NCBI GenBank assembly: GCA_009602725.1
Contig: WELB01000030.1
Coordinates: 701,553-765,552 of the forward strand
Reading direction: 5' to 3'
DNA: 64,000 nucleotides
Source of the DNA: Spirogloea muscicola
Lineage: Eukaryota > Streptophyta > Zygnematophyceae > Spirogloeales > Spirogloeaceae
The notes below the pieces were generated by a model. That model did not search any database, was not told the DNA's origin, and saw only the letters and a list, made by a program, of their open reading frames with translations. The number at the start of each line of letters is the position of its first letter. The first letter of the stretch is position 1. The position numbers and the translations under genes are program-made. This document shows positions 32,479-43,695 of the stretch, piece by piece.

Positions 32479-34806
32479 ATGGCGATCGAGGAGGCGGTAC
32501 TGGCCGCGATCAAGGCCGCCAAGCCCGTTTTCCGGGATGACCACGACCGGGTCGCGTTCGCCGCGCACGCCGCGGTGCTGGCGTCGGGCTACAGCCTCGT
32601 GGCAGCTGGCCGCAGCGTCGACGCTGAGCCGTCAGGTCAGGGCCAGCTCTCAAGCGATGGCTACATGCAGTGGAGACGGCACTGCCTCGTCGAGCTGGAA
32701 GCCGGGCCGTGAAGTGACCCTGCGCGCTGCGGACGCATGGCTTGTCATGCAGAGGCCAAGGAGTCGGAGGCGACCAGCAGCTGGAAGAACAGCAACGGCA
32801 CGTACGCCTTCCGCTATGCGGCTGACGACGACCCCGAGCGGACGATGATTCTCAAGGGCACAGCCATGGGCGAGTCGCTCATGCTCGACGCAGCTGCTGA
32901 CAGCAGGACCACCAACACAGAACTAAAGTTGGTGTTACCTTCGCCAAGCGCATTCTGCCCAACAATCTCAAGCGGATATCCAGCTTTTGATTTCATTCTG
33001 ATTATCTCAAGGCCATGACATGCGATCCAACCTGCAACCTACCTGATGCTGGTGACTGGTTCAGTGCAGCTCTGATGTCCTGCATGGGTCCGTATCACAA
33101 GGAATTAGCCTGGAAGTACGAGAACTTGGCAGCCTGTCACAAGTCGATTTGTGCGTGTTTTCAGGGTGAAGGACTACGTGGCAGACACCAGCAACTCAAG
33201 CTATGCAAGGCAGTACAAGAATTTGAGATTGCTTGTGGAGCATGTTGAGAGAGACATTCTCAAGGACTTATATCCGCCTATTGCAAGTGCCAAGTCGACC
33301 AGTCGTTCCAGCCAGTATGCATGCCCACTCTTCTCTGTTGGCAGTCCCGACTCTGCTGCTTACACCACTAAACAAGTCCTTGCAGTACTACTCTTGAAGC
33401 CTTATCCTGCTATTGTAAAGTACATGTTGTTGCGTGCATTATTGTATCAACCCAGACTAGTATAACACCTTTACCTTGTTCACTTTTCATGCACTCAAAA
33501 ATCATGCTGCACCCGCAGGGGGAAGACCGAGACGAGTCGGCTGATTGAGGGCGAAAACCAACCTCAGTGGCAGCCTGCTCAGGGGTACATTTTCGTGTTC
33601 ATCAATTGCATTATGCTTGTTAGCTGCAAGGGATGGCTGCGGGGCCAGTACTGGAATCTGCTGTGTGCGGTCGATCAGAGGCTGTGACAGTCACTGAAGT
33701 GCCGTTTATTTCCAAGTCAATTCAGCAGGAGTGGACTCTACGTACCCAACCAGGGACACGACGATCTTTATCCAGCGAGTGGACTCGGAGTTTTTCCCAT
33801 GCAGTAAGCCACCAGCATGTAGTCTGCAGTCATCAGCGAAGATGCTCGAGTCCACTGCAGATCAGAGGCATCAGTCTGTGGGTCATTGGGCTTGTTTGAC
33901 TGTAAGCAGAAACACAATTAGAAGCTATGCTTACAGATTGTCGATTGCGGTAGCGCGTGAGAAGATGATGTCAGTTTGTGGCTTTTCCTGCAGACCTGAC
34001 ATGCCAGGTCTTATGGGTGGTGTTGGAATACCCGGGGGAGGTGGCATGCTTCTTGGTAAATACGATATGCGCTTGACCTAGGACTCTGCTGAGAAAGAAA
34101 GGCTGAGTCCTTGTCATACTGGAGCAGCGTTGACATTGCTTGGTCTTGACAGGTCCCAATGATCCCAGGTGGTTAGGAGTTGGAAGCAGCCAGGGGCCTT
34201 ATGGTGGTGGTCTTCCACCGTAAGATGCTAGTCCTTTCGATGGAAACAGGCAGGAAGCTTCCGAGAATTTGTGTTACGTACACAACAGAGACTGCTTGTG
34301 GCTTTTGGAAGTGCATTCACAGTGCTTTCATGATCTCCAATTATTTATATTGAGCTCGATCAAGGACGACTTCTTTTCTGTGAGTTCAGCATTATCTGCG
34401 TCATATTGCCGACGGACAGGCAATACTTTCAGTCTCAGTGCCGTCGTTTGTCATTGGTGATGCACAGAGGGGTCCCTGCAGGAGCTCGATTTGATCCATA
34501 CGGCCCTTTTGGAGTACCTGGATTCGAGCCAGACCGATTTGGCGGGTATGTTCGATCCCATTATACCCAGATGGCTTTCTTAGACTAATCAAATTTGGGC
34601 ATAGATTGCGGTGGTGATATAAGGTAGGCGAATTTGCCATCCGCCTGACTTATTATGTGGTAGCCCTACATGTATTGTTGGGCTGCGCCAAGGGGAGAGC
34701 GCAGACAACTCTTAAGCCTCAGTTTGCGCTTTACAGAGAAGGTGGAAGGGGGCCGCGGCCAGGGCCTCACGTGCACCCTGATGTGCAACATTTCTACCCC
34801 TTCTGA
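32479..34806 (+). CDS. PTRE1: Proteasome regulator PTRE1 / PI31-like
   Basis: PI31 proteins bind the 20S proteasome through a C-terminal HbYX-type tail; Arabidopsis PTRE1 promotes proteasome activity in auxin signalling. Nine exons give 299 aa (PTRE1 about 302): 32479-32635, 32753-32927, 33165-33314, 33519-33584, 33729-33803, 33994-34055, 34153-34219, 34468-34545, 34737-34806. The N-terminal FP domain has AIKAAKPVFRDDHDRVAFAA and KGTAMGESLMLDAAADS; VKDYVADTSNSSYARQYKNL follows. The C-terminal half is Gly/Pro-rich with PDMPGLMGGVGIPGGGG and GARFDPYGPFGVPGFEPDRF, the conserved PI31 block. The protein ends in FYPF. Start: ATG in a gccATGg context after a CCG-repeat leader. Confidence 0.94.
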
Positions 34807-35789
34807 GCCCCTGAGGACAGGATATGTTTTTGAGGGAGGCTTTGTCAAGTAGTCACAGTACAATTTTCGCAGCATGCTGGGGGACTGCATGAGCCTGCTC
34901 AGTTTGCCTGAGACCTGTACATGTGTGTATAGTAAGATGGTGCAAGAGAAGATTTTGCAGGCGCTGTCATGAAATATCCCGTCGGTGGCTTATTCGTGTC
35001 GGTCTGACAAGACATGTGAGGTGGCACAACACGCGGACGACTGAGACACGTCACCTATCTAATACTGTAAACCAGAATTCGCAAACACAGCACCTCTAGC
35101 ACAACTCCGGTCGCGTAAGTGTGGATTTGTCTTTGGAACTATCGATTATACATCAACAGGCCAACCCCATCCTCCAATCTCAACCACTCAAACACCGTGC
35201 GTATCTGCCGCTGGACCGTAGATTTGGTATCCCAGAGGCAGCCCCAGCCTACCGCCCGAAACCGCTCAAAAGCCCAAGAGAAGCCGAAAAGCCTTACGCC
35301 TACTTCGATGGGTGTGCTCCCACCTTGACGAGTGAAGGCGGGTACCGGTCAGGCTAGCGGCGGGTAAAGGTGAAAGGGTGAGGGAATAGCAATCCCAGGC
35401 TACACTGGCCTTGGGAATTAAGGGTGGAGGGGCAGGTCGGAAATAGTGGTCTCAGGCTACACTGGCCTTGAGATCGAGGAGGAGGGGGAGCCAAATGGGC
35501 CAACGAGCCTGCTCCAAAGAAAACAGAACCATTCTTTCCGAGTTAGCTTGTCAGATTTGTTTGTGCTCACCCGTGGGTACTAATGTCATCTTAGGTACCT
35601 TAGATTAGGTCTCCGTATTATATAGCATTGTTTAGTCTGCACTCGACTCTGCCTGAACAATGTATTGGCTTGAATTGGCCTCCCTTTCAATTCATGCGCC
35701 CCGCGCGCCTTCCCCCTTCTCGTACTCTGTTCATTCTTTTTCGGGCTGGTTGTTCCAGCCCCTATTCTCAATGGGCGAGCACTTTCTTC
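34807..35789. repeat. Repeat region left of the assembly gap
   Basis: It begins with PTRE1 3' UTR. A motif aggctacactggcctt occurs twice (near 35396 and 35454). A frame near 35547-35583 ends in LSDLFVLTRGY-stop, the signature of the decayed retroelement family. The dispersed module at 35650-35713 and a GGGCTGG...CCAGCCC copy at 35710-35789 run directly into the gap. An open frame at 35121-35357 is unrecognised. Confidence 0.55.
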
Positions 35790-35901
35790 NNNNNNNNNNN
35801 NNNNNNNNNNNNNNNNNNNNNNNNNNNNNNNNNNNNNNNNNNNNNNNNNNNNNNNNNNNNNNNNNNNNNNNNNNNNNNNNNNNNNNNNNNNNNNNNNNNN
35901 N
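35790..35901. other. Assembly gap (112 n)
   Basis: A run of n separates dispersed-repeat sequence from a tandem repeat and the LTR element. The true length is unknown. The left terminal repeat of the element may be in it. Confidence 0.98.
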
Positions 35902-35972
35902 CGAAGTCCCTTCATTGGGCGTGATACTGTTCGGTCCGAAGTCCCTTCATTGGGCGTGATACTGGTTCTGTC
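35902..35972. repeat. Two tandem copies of a 35-base unit at the gap edge
   Basis: The unit starting cgaagtcccttcattgggcg occurs at 35902-35936 and again, nearly identical, at 35937-35972. Since it abuts the gap, the gap may hide more copies. It lies just outside or inside the left end of the LTR element. Confidence 0.8.
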
Positions 35973-36149
35973 CGAGCCCGTAGTAGGGCGTTCTCAATTC
36001 CGTTACTATTTCAAAGACCGATACCGACACTGAAACTGTTACGGTGACGGCTATTGGCCATCAGTTTCGGATCTAGTCCGTGCATCGCTATCATTGCTTG
36101 GTGTTTCGGCTGCCTCTTTACTGGACCGAGTGAACTCCATTTTATTGTG

Positions 36150-37270
36150 TGGCGGTGATATCAAGCGATTTGTGTCTGTGCATGGACTTAAGAAGCGGCC
36201 GCAATACTGAGTCTGTAGGTGAACCTTCAGATATTGTTGAGCTGCCAGTTGACGTATCAGACATTGCTGCTGTGGGTGGTTCGTCTGCAGGAGACTCCGC
36301 AGTCATCTCTCGCAGACCTCGTCGCGCCATCATGTCTAGCGGAAACAGACCCACTTACAGAGGTACGCCCGGTGGTGATCCTCTTGCAAAGGTGAAATTG
36401 CATTATTATGCAGAGCTCTGCCAGCTGAGATTGCTAGGCAGTACTATCAGTCGGGAGGATAAAATGCTTTTACTGGGTCCCTATTTTAGTTATGAGGCAG
36501 CGGATGTCTGTGAAAGGCTGAAGGACGATCTCTTAGCTATGACCACACCAGTCCCAGCTAATGCATCACCGGCAGAATTGGAAAAGGGTCCTCAGTTACT
36601 GGAGGATCCAGTCAAAGAAATGTCTAAGTCCTTGGAGGAACAATTCCCAGTAAACGCAAATCTTTATAAGCAGGAACTGCTCAGGTTTAGCCGGCTTCCG
36701 AATGAGTCGACCACTTTGTGCTACTTCCGATTTAAGAAACTCATTAAACAGTCAGAAACCCCTATCAGCGAGCAGGAACTCGCTTCGCAGTTCCTGGACG
36801 TCTTTTCTGGCAAAGATTTAAAACAGATTCAGACCTTATTGCTGGTACGTCGTCAGCAATTAGGCAAGAAAGATTACAATTTAGAGGACGTGTATAAGGT
36901 AATGATGGAGACAGAAGCTGACGACTTTGCATTGCACATTGCGAACGAGCGATTTGCAGGCATTGGAGGTGCTATGGCAAAATATTCAAACAAATTATCA
37001 GGGTGTAATGTCAGGACACACATTGACACACCTGTATCTTCACCTTCTGTCAAGTCATTTTCTCCTCAGAATACTTCCATAACAGGGTGTCTCCACTGCG
37101 GAAAAAGGGGACATGTCAAGGAAAATTGCAGGCTTCTACATCAAACTTCTGGTGCTGTATGTTCGTTCTGCAATAGGACCGGTCATTTAGACACGCAGTG
37201 TTGGCAGAAACACCCAGAAAAGTTGCCCAACTCTATGAAGGAGAAATATGGTCAAGAAAGGGTGTCAAAC
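36150..37270 (+). mobile_element. LTR element part: gag with two zinc knuckles
   Basis: A basic, mostly helical capsid-like region precedes two CX2CX4HX4C knuckles (CLHCGKRGHVKENC and CSFCNRTGHLDTQC). This layout is usual for gypsy gag nucleocapsid. Confidence 0.85.
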
Positions 37271-37999
37271 CAAGTTGCGTAGTCGTCCGGACCCTCTCAA
37301 ACCAAAGTCGATCAACTGACAAAACAGATTCAAGAACTGACAAAACAACTGACAGTTGCAAAGGCACAGACAAAGTCTAAAATAGTCTCGGCTGCGTTGC
37401 CATACTCAGGTCAGGAAGAAGATGAGGATACATACCCAACTGGAGAAGATGAGAATACATACCAAGGACAGCACAACCCTAACAATACTGATGGGTATGA
37501 TATTCGACACGCATATACCTTATCTCTGCCCAGACGTAATCCTCTTAAGCGAGGGGAAAACGAGTTGCAGCCAAATGTTAGTTCTGGTAGTTTTCGTTAC
37601 CCAGCGAGCTTTCAGCTGAAAGATATTGAAGCCGACAGCCCACCTCGCCGTGTTAAACCTGTGTCACCCAAACCAGTTATTGACATAGATCCAAAGATAA
37701 GTTCTGTGTCAACTGATAAACTACTGAATAGGATGTATTCCACACCTATCTTGAGCTTTGAAGACCTTGGCATGACAAAGGCACAGTTGGGGGACCATAT
37801 ACAAGCCTCCGATAGTTCGTACCAGATAGTCACAGTGCAAGTGACTGATTCGCCGGCAGTGATGACAACAGCACCCTCAAAATTCTTAGCTGTTGACAAT
37901 GTCTCATGCAGGCCACCAACTGAACGCACCGAGCAGCTGGCAGCTGTAGCAATGCTGCAGAATTCCGACGGAGTCATTCAAGTTTCTACCAAGAATGTC

Positions 38000-38310
38000 A
38001 CTGAGGCACCTGATAAGGTCCTAATGGACACAGGTGCACAACCCATCTTACTTGGTTCTCGATTTGCTAACTTGTTAAAGATTGGGAAAAATTATATGCA
38101 AAGTGACAAGGTCATGATCACTACAGCAACTGGTTCCACTGATAATGTGGTCGGAATTACAAAACACCCGTTGCTTATCACCTTCAATAGTCATGATCCT
38201 GCCAAGCGTCCTCTTTCTCAGCAATTTGCTTGATAACCAAGGCAACAACATATGATATATTGCTGGGTACTGAGACCTTAATTCCTTTGGGTTTTGGAAT
38301 AGACTACTAT
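38000..38310 (+). mobile_element. LTR element part: retropepsin-like protease
   Basis: The active-site triad segment VLMDTGAQPILLGS and the downstream ILLG-type signature (YDILLGTETLIPLG) are those of retroviral-type aspartic proteases. A Ser/Pro/Lys-rich linker follows before the methyltransferase part. Confidence 0.8.
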
Positions 38311-38899
38311 GCTGAACAGGCATGGTACAGACCTCAATGGGAGATTTCAGGCACTACAAAAGTCATGTTGCCACTATTAAAGGGGTGGAAATCCAATAAC
38401 ACATCAGCTCATATTGGCATGGTTGTGTTGAATACAGGAAGGAAGGCCGTTGAGACGTCAATTGCAAATCCTGCAGAGGACTCTAAAATGCAGACGGGTG
38501 ACACCGCTGAAGGGAAGAAGGCAGCCCAACAGCCAGTTGACATTTCCCCTAAGAAGGACGCTGAAGGTTCACCTGTAACTGACTTGAATAAGCCTCCACC
38601 TGCTGTTGTGCTTGTCTCGACTTCCAACAAGTGCGGTTTGTCAACGTCCGACAATCCTGTATTGCAGCCCAATCGCCACCTCGTACCCTTGTTCATTCAG
38701 GCTTGACACCAGCTGATTTGGAGACATTGGAGCATGCAAAGCATTGGGAACGAATTCAGGCTGCACGGATGAGTTTCCCAGTTATAGGGCACTATCGCGC
38801 AGCCGAAGCATGGTCACCTTTTACCTTTGAGACTCAGGTGCAGCCGCGCAAGACCAACATTGGCTCCAATGACGTCAACAATATTGGCATATTGTACGA

Positions 38900-39900
38900 G
38901 GGAGTAATCGAGTGGAATATTCCCGAAGCTGGTATTGTTCTGGTCGAACTGTTTGGCGGTGCAGCCAATGGCCTCAAAGCTGTGCTACAGAGTCATATCA
39001 AGGTGGCCAAATACTATTATGTGGATGCAGATGAGGAGGCCAGAGCAGTGGCCCAGCATCATATTGACTGGTTAATCGGCCAGTACCCCACTTTGGTGAC
39101 TGAGCAGACATTCAGTCATTGGGATACAATGTTCCCGCAGGACATCACAGAAGCAGTAAAGTCAGCTTTCCCCAAGCTGCCTCATGTGGATCTTGTTATG
39201 GCGGGTTTTCCTTGTGGTGGTTTTAGCTCACTTGGCAGCGGGCTGGGCTTCAAGCATCCCCAGACAGGCCTGTTCATTACCATGATGGAGTAATTACACG
39301 ACATTCGCTCCCGTCAGGCTACGCCTTATGGATACATAATTGAGAATGTGGAGCCAAAGCCAAGCCAACATAACGCTCGACGCCATTTTACTACGGTGTG
39401 CGACATTCTGGGACCACCCACAAAATTCAATGCAGCAAAAATGGGGTCATTGGCTGACCGCAACCGTGTGCACTGGACGAACCTAGCACCACAACAAATG
39501 CTGGAGACTTGTATCAAGCACCAGATCCGGCCTCCAAACCTGTATGCCTACGTGGCACTTAATCCCGGCCGTGAAGTGGTACCGGTTATCCATGCACTCA
39601 ACAGAGGTTCATACAACATGGAACGTTGTCATCGCATGACGTTTCCCACCTTCGTTGCAACTGAAGGCTCAGTGGATTTCCATGTGGTCAGAGGAGAGCC
39701 AGGTCAAGGCATGGTCAGAGATATAGCCACTGACACATATGAAGAACCACACCCTCACGAGCGAGAGAGGGCAATGGGTTATAATCCAGGAGAGATTTCC
39801 CTACTCCACTTTTCTCGCACAACCAATATCCGCATCATAGGAAATTCTTTTGATGCAAATTCAATGTCTTGGTTTACAAGCGTCTGTAATGCCATACAAG
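38900..39900 (+). mobile_element. LTR element part: DNMT3-like cytosine-5 methyltransferase region
   Basis: Motif I (SAM binding) reads VELFGGAANGL and motif IV, with the catalytic Pro-Cys, reads AGFPCGGFSSLGSGLGF. The ENV motif is in IIENVEP, an RNRVHWTNL segment fits motif VIII, ERERAMGYNPGE resembles the DNMT3 MERVFGFP region, and GNSFDANSMSWF fits motif X. Motif order is the unpermuted order of eukaryotic C5 methyltransferases. The style is closer to DNMT3 than to DNMT1/MET1 or chromomethylase, in my reading. Cytosine methyltransferases captured by LTR elements have been reported from charophyte algae and dinoflagellates, so this placement has precedent. The copy is damaged; activity should not be assumed. 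Confidence 0.82.
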
Positions 39901-40049
39901 TGCAATATAGATTGAAGAAGAGAAGCTTTCTGACCAATCCACAACAAATGGCAGATTCAGACAAACAACTGTTGCAGTTGTTTGACCCACCAGTCAGAGT
40001 GGTCAACGAATCCTGACAATCAAAGACTAACAGGCAGGTATACCATTCT

Positions 40050-41500
40050 TTGCCAGCCTATCAATGGCATCTTGGTCCTGACCTGACCACCGATGACAAA
40101 GCTAACATGCTACATATACTAAATAGCAGTCTTTCTGCTTTTGCTTTCTCATCAGCTGATTTGGGCACCTATGTTGGTTCCAAATTTCAAATTCAGCTGA
40201 CAAATGAGCAACCTATCTTCCGTCAACGTTATCCCTTGTCTAAGTTTGAAAATGATTTTATAGACAAGAAATGCCAGGAGTTGCTAGCTGTTGGTTTTAT
40301 ACAACCATCCCACAGCTCCTTTGCAGCACCTACTGTATTACCAGCAAAGAAAGATGAGTTTGGTAATTACACAGATCGGAGAATGTGTGGAGATTCCCGT
40401 TTGCTCAATGCTTCCACACCTTTGGATCGTTATCCCATGCCAACGACAGAGGAGATTTTTGCTTCTGTGGGTAACAGTAAAATCTTCTCAGTACTGGATC
40501 TTCGGCAAGGGTTTAACCAAATAGATATTGAGCCTCACGACAGGCACAAGACCGCTTTTTGGGGGGTCAGTGAAGGTGTTGGATTTTTATACGAATGGAT
40601 AAAACTGCCATTTGGTCTTAAGAATGCTCCGATCATGTTTCAGCGTGTTATGGATATGGTGTTGAAACGTATTCCATTTGCACGTTGTTACATTGACGAT
40701 GTGTTGGTATTCAGCAACAGCTTTGAGGAACATTTAAGCCATATCGCCGTTGTGCTTACAACCCTTCAGCAAGCTGGCCTAAGATGTCACCCGGGCAAAT
40801 GTCGTTTTGGCCTACCTGAGGTTGACTACTTGGGACACCAGATATCACACAAAGGATTGTCACCACAAGCAGCCAAAGAACAAGCAGTTCTTGACATTCC
40901 TGAACCAACAAATCTCAAATCATTACGGTCGTTTCTTGGTTTGGCCAGCTATTATCGACGTTTAATCAAGGATTTCAGCTCCATAGCCCGGCCTCTTAAT
41001 GATTTGTTGAAGAAGGATGTAAAATGGCAGTGGACTCCCCCTCGTCACCAGGCGTTTAATCAGCTTAAACATGCTCTTACTCAGGCTCCAGTTCTTCGAC
41101 ATCCCGATTACACTCAACTATTTTACTTACACACTGATTGGAGCAAAGTTGGCATGGGCGCCGTTTTGACTCAGCGTGACGAGAACAAACATCATCATGT
41201 TATTGCTTATGCCAGCTGCAGTAACAATTCTGCACGACAAAAGTATTCAGCATATGAAGGGGAGTGCTTGGCTGCTATGTGGGCCATTACACATTTCAGG
41301 CCTTACCTTCATGGTCGCTCATTCCAATTAATCACTGATCATCAACCATTACAGTGGTTGTTGACTACCCAAACTTTCAGAGGCAAGCTAGCGCGTTGGT
41401 GATCCAAATTACAGGAGTATGACTTCACAGTTGTTCATCGTCCCGGTATTCAAAATCTGGACGCCGATGCTCTGAGTCGAAGTCCAATTCCTGATGCTGA
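40050..41500 (+). mobile_element. LTR element part: reverse transcriptase and RNase H
   Basis: RT has PLDRYPMPTTEEIF, LDLRQGFNQIDI, LPFGLKNAP and the catalytic YIDDVLVFS. The connection and RNase H part has LGLASYYRRLIKDFS, a TDWSKVGMGAVL active-site segment, YSAYEGECLAAMWAI and TDHQPLQWL. These are classic gypsy signatures. Confidence 0.95.
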
Positions 41501-41779
41501 TTCCAATCCACTTGCTCACATGACTATATGGGATAAGACAGTGTTTCCTTCTCGGCTACCTCATGCTCTGAGGTCATCCACACATAACAACTCTTCAGCA
41601 TATAATCTCGACATTCCTGATGATACCTTCTTTTCTAGAGATGTCTGGTTGGACACGCCAGTTTTACAGTATCTACAAACTGGTATTTATCCTCCTGACT
41701 CTACAACAATGCAGAAGGATCGAATAAAACACCGAGCACGTCGCTATGTTTGGACTGATACCCAACTTATCAAACCAGA

Positions 41780-42830
41780 TACTGAATACGGCAATCAGAT
41801 TGTTCCGCCACCTGCATTGCGGACACAAATCGTGCACGATGTTCATGCCTCCTTAGGGCATTTTGGTGTGAAGCGTACTATCAGTTTGTTGGCCACTAAA
41901 TACTGGTGGTCTGGCATCACAAACATGGTGAAACATGTTCGATCCACTTGCGAGGAATGTGATCGCATTCGCAGTACTCTTTCGTTAAAGTCAACTCAGT
42001 TTCATCCGTTGCCCATTCACAGATTGTTCTATCGGTGGAGTTTGGATTTGGCTGGTCCTCTACGTCTGGGTAAACAAAGACCCTACGTGTTAATCATGAT
42101 TGAGCATTTTACCAAATGGGTTGAAGTGGTTGTCATTCCTACCAAGTCTAGTGTACACATCGCTGAGGCCTTTTTAGACCAAGTATTATCCAGATTTGGC
42201 GCTTGTGCTGAGGTTCTCACGGATCAAGGTTCGGAATTTCAGGGTGAATTTCAACGTCTCTTGGACCAAACCTTTATCGATCACCAACTTACCTCACGAG
42301 ACCACCCTCAAGCTGATGGCTTAGCGGAACGCATGGTTCAGACAATCAAACGTGGTCTGACAAAGTATGCTCTTCGCAAAGGCACAGAAAGGTGGAACAA
42401 ATCCCTGCCATGGCTTATAATGGGATACCGAATGTCCAAACAGACATCTTTGTCAGCTTATAGCCCTTACTTTCTTCTTTATGGACGTCATCCAGTCATT
42501 CCTGTCAGTCTTCAAGCTGTGGTCACAGAAGTAGTTGACTTTGATAACCCGCAAACGTGGATGAAAGTTTGTACTGAACGGGGACGTCTGTTCAAACGTC
42601 ATATGCCCATTGCTTTAGACAACCTCCGTATTGCTCAACATCGCGATACCCAACGATATGCTACAATTCGCAGTGGCAATTATCAAGCCAAACATCAGTC
42701 GATTGCTGTCAATGACTATGTATACCTCAAGGTGAAACCTCAGGATGCACTAGATGCCTCTACAGGTCCGTTTATATACAAGGTTGTTGGCAAAAACAAC
42801 TCAGGCATCATTCGTTTGCAAGGATGATGT
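41780..42830 (+). mobile_element. LTR element part: integrase
   Basis: An HHCC zinc-binding domain (HDVHASLGHFGVKRT ... CEECDRI) is followed by the DDE catalytic core (SLDLAGPL, LTDQGSEFQGEF, HPQADGLAERMVQTIKRGL) and a C-terminal region with VNDYVYLKVKP. No chromodomain is seen; a PHD finger follows instead. Confidence 0.93.
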
Positions 42831-42919
42831 GGTAGGGAAATTTCTGATCATATCCAAAATATCACACCTTGCCATCTTACCAACATTGATACTACAATTT
42901 ACCCTACCAGGCAGTGGGT

Positions 42920-43095
42920 CTCTGCACACTTATCATGCGAAATTTGTCATCGGGAAGACCAAGCAGCCACCATGCTGTTGTGTTCTGCTTGCAACAAGGG
43001 GTGGCATATTCATTGTTTAACACCACCACTCACAAGTGTTCCTTCCGATGATTGGTTCTGCACAGCTTGTGTGGATAATGACCCAACTCTGCGAC
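42920..43095 (+). mobile_element. LTR element part: PHD-type zinc finger
   Basis: Cysteines and histidine are spaced C-x2-C, C-x2-C, H-x2-C, C-x2-C, with the conserved aromatic residues of PHD fingers (CSACNKGWHIHCL and DDWFCTAC). PHD fingers often read histone H3 tails. Its position after the integrase is where chromoviruses carry a chromodomain. Confidence 0.8.
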
Positions 43096-43125
43096 CTGGT
43101 CAGGACTCATAGTTGGGGGGGGGTA

Positions 43126-43695
43126 AACTGGAAATCATCCATCACAAGCTCCAGTGACCTTCTCATTCTGACATTACACTATCTATTTTGTTTCCAGCTT
43201 AGCAATATGCAAATTTCTCGTTTTTTTATTTTCCTTTGACAATGTTTGGCGTTGCCGGTCACGCGGATTCAATGTTGTCACCTGCATTTCTCACACATCT
43301 CTCCTATCGACGTTAACTAGCAACCGACACCATGTAGCACGACAGCGCTGCTCAATTTGCCGTCAGTCTTGTCGTGGAAGTCCCCTATCTCAGCCAGGCA
43401 TGGCATACTTGGTGTCGCTTATCAACTTTCAGGCTTGGATTGGAAGGGTTTGCACATCTTGGGCACCACTGGATTGGTTATAAATTGGGTGGTCGAGACA
43501 TAGCATGCACTGTCAAAGGACGCCAAGTTGCAGGGGAAGGGGCAGCCACTGCTGCCTTGTCAAATACTCAGTCGAGGGGGCACAGCAACAGCTCTCTGGG
43601 TATGAAGCGAGTTGGGGAGTGGTGCTGTGAACAAGTAGCCCATTTGAACAAGCTGCCCGAGTGTGGAGTGAGTGATGCCACAACACCGTGGCACC
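43126..43695. other. Region between LTR element and DUF751 gene
   Basis: This stretch should contain the right terminal repeat if one is preserved, but I found no match to sequence left of the element. It has an AT-rich patch (tttttttattttcctttgac near 43218) and no recognisable gene. The 3' UTR of the DUF751 gene lies at its right end. Confidence 0.4.

Follow-up and report, generated by a model that had tools for sequence, protein, structure and literature searches.

The closest described counterparts of the element analysed here are retrotransposons that carry a Dnmt3-type cytosine methyltransferase. KnitGypsy-Dnmt3 of the streptophyte alga Klebsormidium nitens is a Ty3/gypsy element with such an enzyme in its Pol ORF (de Mendoza et al. 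2018, PMC5890265), and a figure legend in that paper names a "DIRS-like layout" for its repeats. In a yeast assay, the enzyme of SymbioDIRS-Dnmt3 from Symbiodinium methylated CG de novo, and no methylation was seen when the KnitGypsy-Dnmt3 enzyme was assayed likewise, a result judged inconclusive by its authors (PMC5890265). Why a parasite should carry the silencing enzyme of its host is a question that was raised there in 2018 (PMC5890265), and a 2025 phylogeny mentions retrotransposon DNMT3s as reported earlier (PMC12344493). Among the open-licence papers of PubMed Central (preprints and subscription papers being outside this scope), KnitGypsy and SymbioDIRS are named in PMC5890265 only, no paper mentions Spirogloea together with DNA methyltransferase, and no follow-up on the streptophyte elements was found beyond the mention in PMC12344493.

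The window (the whole stretch of 64,000 nucleotides from Spirogloea muscicola that was analysed) carries a copy of a Ty3/gypsy element at 34965-43344 on the + strand, starting with TGTCATG and ending with ACGACA. Its boundaries were read against an empty site on contig C58, where window positions 34300-34966 and 43345-43560 match side by side:

34961..34964, strand not applicable: 5′ target-site duplication GCGC, identical to the 4 bp at 43345-43348; empty site on C58
34965..36122, + strand: 5′ terminal block XA, first letters TGTCATG, with an N run (35790-35901) inside; dispersed in the genome, start set by the element/empty-site boundary
43115..43123, + strand: G run, candidate polypurine tract judged from sequence; in locus L039 a G run likewise closes the PHD-coding frame
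43124..43344, + strand: 3′ terminal block B, last letters ACGACA; end set by the element/empty-site boundary
43345..43348, strand not applicable: 3′ target-site duplication GCGC, pairing with the 5′ copy

The two terminal blocks differ (XA measures about 1.16 kb and B, which comes after the G run, 221 bp). Four solo units that could be read at both ends had the same ends as the window copy, except for one that starts with AG instead of TG, and were flanked by the 4-bp duplications CCCC, GGGC, GCGG and AGCC. Together with the window copy, 4-bp duplications were present in 5/5 insertions read at both ends, with a TG start in 4/5, an AG start in 1/5 and a CA end in 5/5. All five duplications read (GCGC, CCCC, GGGC, GCGG, AGCC) are GC-rich, with 100-bp flanks of 46 to 80% GC, and a preference of the element for GC-rich 4-bp target sites is possible. 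At the place of the 112-base N run (35790-35901) in the 5′ terminal block, the solo units contain tandem repeats of about 72 bp.

The coding parts follow the order protease, reverse transcriptase (RT), RNase H and integrase, as in Ty3/gypsy elements (the protease scoring under the Pfam cut-off), and were laid out as follows:

36182..37282, + strand: gag; a pair of CCHC knuckles lies at about 37088-37220 (zf-CCHC E 0.09, under cut-off)
37280-37282, + strand: private TAG stop in gag; a sense codon in sister copy C48
38018..38230, + strand: aspartic protease (LMDTGAQP; gag-asp_proteas E 0.017, under the curated cut-off)
38703..40013, + strand: DNMT3-like C5-cytosine methyltransferase domain (Pfam, profile and fold searches)
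39291-39293, + strand: private TAA within the methyltransferase domain, between motifs IV and VI; a sense codon in C48
40014..40022, + strand: conserved TGA stop with CAATCA (CARYYA) directly after it, a candidate signal for readthrough (sister-copy junctions)
40017..41399, + strand: reverse transcriptase and RNase H (Pfam E down to 6e-35)
41400-41402, + strand: private TGA after RT/RNase H; a sense codon in C2
41403..42824, + strand: integrase (H2C2, DDE core; Pfam E 1.5e-15)
42825-42827, + strand: private TGA after the integrase; a sense codon in C2 and C157
42936..43070, + strand: PHD finger (PF00628, E 5.9e-11)

The window copy is degraded by four private stops (37280, 39291, 41400 and 42825) and one frameshift at the end of the protease (at about 38197-38233), and it is impossible for this copy itself to produce the enzyme. 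In sister copy C2, a first frame of 1411 codons covers Gag, the CCHC knuckles, the protease (gag-asp_proteas E 2.7e-4, also under the curated cut-off) and the methyltransferase, and a second frame of 1037 codons, which is the same reading frame separated from the first by one stop, covers RT, RNase H, integrase and PHD finger.

A preliminary description of this DNA had proposed, from five motifs, that a DNMT3-like methyltransferase lies within the pol part of the element. All five motifs were indeed found on the + strand and in one frame:

38943-38960, + strand: motif I, VELFGG
39201-39230, + strand: motif IV, AGFPCGGFSS
39213-39215, + strand: catalytic Cys codon of motif IV (PCGG); Cys invariant in 8/8 sister copies
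39342-39350, + strand: ENV motif
39459-39485, + strand: RNRVHWTNL
39840-39851, + strand: GNSF

The profile search that had been suggested as a check returned a significant match to PF00145 (DNA_methylase) at 38592-39290 (E 7.2e-8; bit score 32.7, curated cut-off 22), and with the flanking domains confirmed this places a C5-methyltransferase in the Ty3/gypsy coding region between protease and RT. The enzyme does occupy the originally proposed 38.9-39.9 kb, but the domain is longer (about 38.7-40.0) and is broken by the TAA at 39291-39293; its second piece (39294-40013) had no Pfam match on its own. When scanned singly, 8/8 sister copies matched PF00145 (E <= 0.01), and all eight keep the catalytic Cys as well as the ENV and RxR residues unchanged and in order. 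The PCGG reading of motif IV, remarked upon earlier, is present in the window copy, but the motif varies between sister copies, which read PCGG, PCEG or PCQG and in one case WECQG.

Identifying the enzyme required a profile of the sister copies, because PDB searches with the single window halves stayed near chance (Hen1 at 0.046 and HhaI at 0.17 for the first half, one unrelated match at 0.43 for the second). Against solved families, the joint profile ranked DNMT3A (1e-14) and DNMT3B (2e-12) ahead of M.HaeIII (2e-10), HhaI (1e-8) and DRM2 (2.5e-6; profile positions 73-204 align with the C-terminal part of DRM2), with the tRNA enzyme DNMT2 (2e-3) far below DNMT3A/B. A Foldseek search with the predicted structure, a modest model (pLDDT 62, pTM 0.67), returned DNMT3 chains in all of its best 50 rows, and by VIA-align Z M.HhaI lay less than 1 Z unit behind the best DNMT3 row, which is inside the tie margin. 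The motif A(H/D)RxRxxWxNL is common to the element enzymes and DNMT3. In a 20-row methyltransferase tree that comprised no DNMT1, DNMT5, DRM or plant DNMT3 rows, the element enzymes grouped with a single partial row of DNMT3A, apart from three rows of bacterial type (support 100/99, on long branches). The DNMT3 affinity that had been proposed from motif style was upheld: the data support an enzyme of the DNMT3 kind with DNMT3A/3B as its best solved relatives by profile and fold, and we infer its activity from sequence. A DRM affinity was ruled out by motif order, which in the element is the canonical I-IV-VI-VIII-X and in DRM is permuted.

The methyltransferase recurs throughout the genome. 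At least 71 PF00145 matches were found, and at least 150 matches to the window piece merged into at least 102 loci on 77 contigs, including related copies in long open frames. Four proteins matched by the window piece bear EukProt gene names such as SM000048S16585 (s48:515608-516654), and genome matches lie on contigs of the same number with overlapping positions (C48:516535, C54:382842). Copies whose ORFs, read by eye, have the same domain order are 34-54% identical to C48 in the methyltransferase domain. Purifying selection on the methyltransferase was shown in the scored pairs (dN/dS 0.131 for C351-C134, 0.116 for the window piece and C48, and 0.312 for C2-C328; 11 pairs were compared, of which 8 were saturated at synonymous sites and 3 scored), and one of two RT comparisons gave 0.047 (C134-C2), the other being saturated. 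Among the matches listed, 62 of the 64 other gypsy RT rows (RTs 36-41% identical to that of C2) had no methyltransferase within 9 kb, and the enzyme is therefore not needed by gypsy elements generally in this genome. Also among the matches listed, a methyltransferase match lay within 9 kb for 22 of the first 52 of at least 151 integrase-PHD matches, many of these loci being fragments.

The stop that follows the methyltransferase is shared by sister copies. In a first set of 18 loci with an RT anchor, 16 junctions were alignable, with a stop in 13/16 and an exact CARYYA in 11/16. In a second set, consisting of 14 loci picked by RT matches before their junctions were seen together with L043-L045, 12 were alignable, with a stop in 12/12 and an exact CARYYA in 9/12. 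Over both sets, with seven non-alignable junctions set aside (L021, L024, L043, L045, L086, L087, L088), 25/28 copies had a stop (17 TAG, 8 TGA, 0 TAA) and 20/28 the exact motif; decay as the origin of the TGA at 40014 is ruled out by this conservation. The three junctions without a stop were those of C134, C248 and C365, and at the 5/25 stops outside the motif the next bases were CAACGA, CGATCA, CAATCG, CCATCA and TCAGGC. As a background, CARYYA followed 6 of 2936 stop trinucleotides in four loci (both strands, all frames, true sites included). YYA is kept while the second amino acid past the stop varies (Leu, Ser or Pro), and the motif also occurs in a GC-rich third subfamily (L044, L082, L089, L090). 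The type I signal for readthrough is UAG-CAR-YYA, and CARYYA is also effective after UGA (PMC3542737). The methyltransferase ends a Gag-protease-methyltransferase frame, beyond which RT, RNase H, integrase and the PHD finger would be reached via readthrough, and the leaky stop seems to set the amount of enzyme made. Because of this conserved and probably leaky stop, the enzyme is better placed on the Gag side than strictly in pol; the earlier wording holds insofar as the enzyme lies inside the coding region of the element.

At the end of the polyprotein, 3′ of the integrase, a PHD finger was found by Pfam in the window copy, in C2 and in three metagenomic polyproteins (P0005-P0007), and by eye in C157. 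The solved proteins closest to it are BAZ2B, Lid, BAZ2A and ATXR5, which are readers of histone H3 unmethylated at K4, as is the ADD domain of DNMT3.

The terminal repeats of the element are split. Neither a repeat search nor blastn found a long direct repeat that would represent two like full LTRs around the window element (XA standing 5′ and B 3′), or an ordinary LTR pair in L039-L041. An ordinary LTR pair was ruled out as the layout of the window's family, the true ends having been given by the empty site and the solo units. Among 39 of 42 B rows (two short fragments and the C58 flank match being left out), B directly followed an A block in 12/39 (solo XA-B), followed one at a distance of 0.5-6.9 kb in 8/39, directly preceded X in 2/39 and could be linked to neither in 17/39, counts that were unchanged when all 46 A rows were used. 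One copy (C174) ends in PHD-B-XA-B and another (C84) shows PHD-B-XA. These endings and linkage counts fit a full form XA-internal-B-XA-B, a DIRS-like layout pieced together from several copies. Recombination between two B or two XA blocks would then have produced the window copy as well as the solo units, the alternative being that the window copy arose by direct integration of an XA-internal-B form. The wider flanks of the C2 copy contain a direct repeat at 80% identity; in this copy (L046+L039+L047), identity between the two XA-like blocks is only about 80% and extra 250-bp tandem units lie in the 3′ block, with 2448 codons still open. Upstream of the element in L042 (contig C134, 8597-9595), a 1-kb palindrome that is 93% self-complementary lies near an N gap and is possibly an assembly artefact.

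The metagenomic polyproteins P0005-P0007 have the order RT-RNase H-methyltransferase-integrase-PHD (for P0005, the methyltransferase is without Pfam match and rests on a phmmer match and motifs). Two fragments (P0010, P0011) likewise read RNase H and then methyltransferase, and P0009 resembles the window copy in having, by eye, a protease-like stretch ahead of the enzyme. Both layouts grouped together in an RT tree that took Ty3 as its reference and had long branches for P0006, P0007 and Ty3; this group stood against 11 other gypsy genome rows and Ty3 (support 100/99) and was made up of P0005-P0007 and seven rows of the window's family, one of which (C36) had no listed methyltransferase match. 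The methyltransferases of both layouts also fell in one, weakly supported group (61/88). Because of this common RT lineage and the single methyltransferase group, one capture is favoured, after which the enzyme would have moved within the polyprotein; the earlier idea that each capture was independent was not shown, the Spirogloea copies and the metagenomic copies with another domain order belonging to one RT lineage. Beyond the PHD finger of P0005-P0007, about 300 residues resemble by eye a degenerate second methyltransferase fold of the adenine type and have no Pfam match. Klebsormidium-named sequences were absent from the relatives returned by the protein searches. A scan of IMG/VR with P0006 gave no match, and one with A1 gave three (L091, L092, L093); of these, the ORFs of L091 (6-11 kb) and L092 were read and include a methyltransferase and, by eye, no RT; among the ORFs read, no relatives of the element were found in IMG/VR.

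We put at roughly 55% the reading that this is a large and old Ty3/gypsy family that keeps a DNMT3-like enzyme within its own replication machinery, doses it through a leaky stop, methylates itself with it and is steered by its PHD finger. Most ribosomes would end at the stop and make Gag-protease-methyltransferase at the level of a structural protein, so that the enzyme would be packaged in quantity, and a minority would read through into the Pol-PHD extension. The enzyme may then methylate the newly made cDNA of the element or its insertion site, most likely at CG by analogy with SymbioDIRS-Dnmt3, and the PHD finger could guide the integrase to chromatin without H3K4 methylation. New insertions would in this way arrive in a silent state, or in one compatible with it, and both host and element would be spared harmful or recognised insertions. 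Because the conserved leaky-stop context would tie the enzyme to the amount of Gag and not of Pol, a role inside the particle is favoured. A fuller account can be offered only tentatively: a DNMT3-type enzyme would have been taken up once by a gypsy lineage, around or before the time when the two layouts separated, and later moved within the polyprotein, and in Spirogloea it would have become a Gag-level particle component that, through the leaky stop and the PHD finger, leaves insertions methylated in H3K4-unmethylated chromatin, the element thus packaging its own heritable silencing.

Other roles for the enzyme appear rather unlikely. It might act on RNA, as the authors of PMC5890265 raised for the LINE type, or be a nucleic-acid-binding, Gag-like structural domain, with DNA methylation not its role. 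A place on the Gag side of a probable leaky stop would suit a packaging or nucleic-acid-binding part, but 8/8 copies keep the catalytic Cys together with ENV and RxR unchanged, and an RNA role sits poorly with closest solved relatives that are the DNA enzymes DNMT3A/B (1e-14) and not DNMT2 (2e-3). We also regard as doubtful that the enzyme serves as camouflage or counter-defence instead of silencing, the cDNA being methylated so that the host sees self or cannot deaminate it. This was proposed for SymbioDIRS (PMC5890265), and the anatomy it requires is that found in the Spirogloea element. However, 62 of the 64 other gypsy RTs are without a methyltransferase within 9 kb (among the matches listed), and yet gypsy elements have spread in the genome. 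No host restriction of unmethylated cDNA is known to us from streptophyte algae, which likewise counts against camouflage.

It is improbable that common ancestry plus amino-acid constraint, instead of programmed readthrough, explain the conserved stop at 40014 with its context, RT then being made by re-initiation or from a second transcript. In favour of this, three of 28 junctions lack a stop, and the gag and pol of the retrotransposon VdLTRE5 are split by a stop without CARYYA (PMC3441728). Against this, CAR-YYA is kept though the second residue switches between Leu, Ser and Pro, two stop codons are in use, and CARYYA belongs to the signal that defines type I readthrough (PMC3542737). Capture of a lone host-gene fragment by the window copy only, which the preliminary description had allowed for, retains next to no probability, being ruled out by the at least 102 loci and the shared domain order of copies 34-54% identical to C48. 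That related polyproteins carry the methyltransferase at two different places suggests that it is retained for its function and not for its position.

Among the systems compared, P0005-P0007 share with the Spirogloea element the RT lineage, a related methyltransferase (30-33% identity), the integrase and the PHD finger, but hold the methyltransferase between RNase H and integrase and are known from metagenomes. Chromoviruses likewise bear an extra domain behind a gypsy-type integrase, but this is a chromodomain and not the PHD finger of the Spirogloea element. Ginger1 elements, which are DNA transposons, include one family in the table of PMC2836005 that has a PHD finger behind a gypsy-like integrase. 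The UAG followed by CARYYA is shared with the type I readthrough viruses (tobamoviruses; PMC3542737), whereas in the Spirogloea element the stop is TGA at 8/25 stop junctions and the sequence around it is a retrotransposon. SymbioDIRS-Dnmt3 also has a Dnmt3-type domain in a retrotransposon polyprotein (PMC5890265), but is a DIRS element with a tyrosine recombinase, whereas the Spirogloea element has a DDE integrase and 4-bp target duplications. KnitGypsy-Dnmt3, whose host is of the same phylum as Spirogloea (Zygnematophyceae) but of another class, is likewise a Ty3/gypsy element from a streptophyte alga and has a Dnmt3-type enzyme in its polyprotein, an unrearranged motif order and purifying selection (PMC5890265); its repeat layout may be similar, judging from the wording of the legend. 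Compared by description, its enzyme lies within the Pol ORF, and that of Spirogloea at the end of the Gag-protease frame before a conserved stop; the PHD finger and the probable readthrough are Spirogloea features that the available part of PMC5890265 does not mention for KnitGypsy-Dnmt3. Similar elements were already known once, from another green alga, and the Spirogloea family is a well-resolved variant of them.
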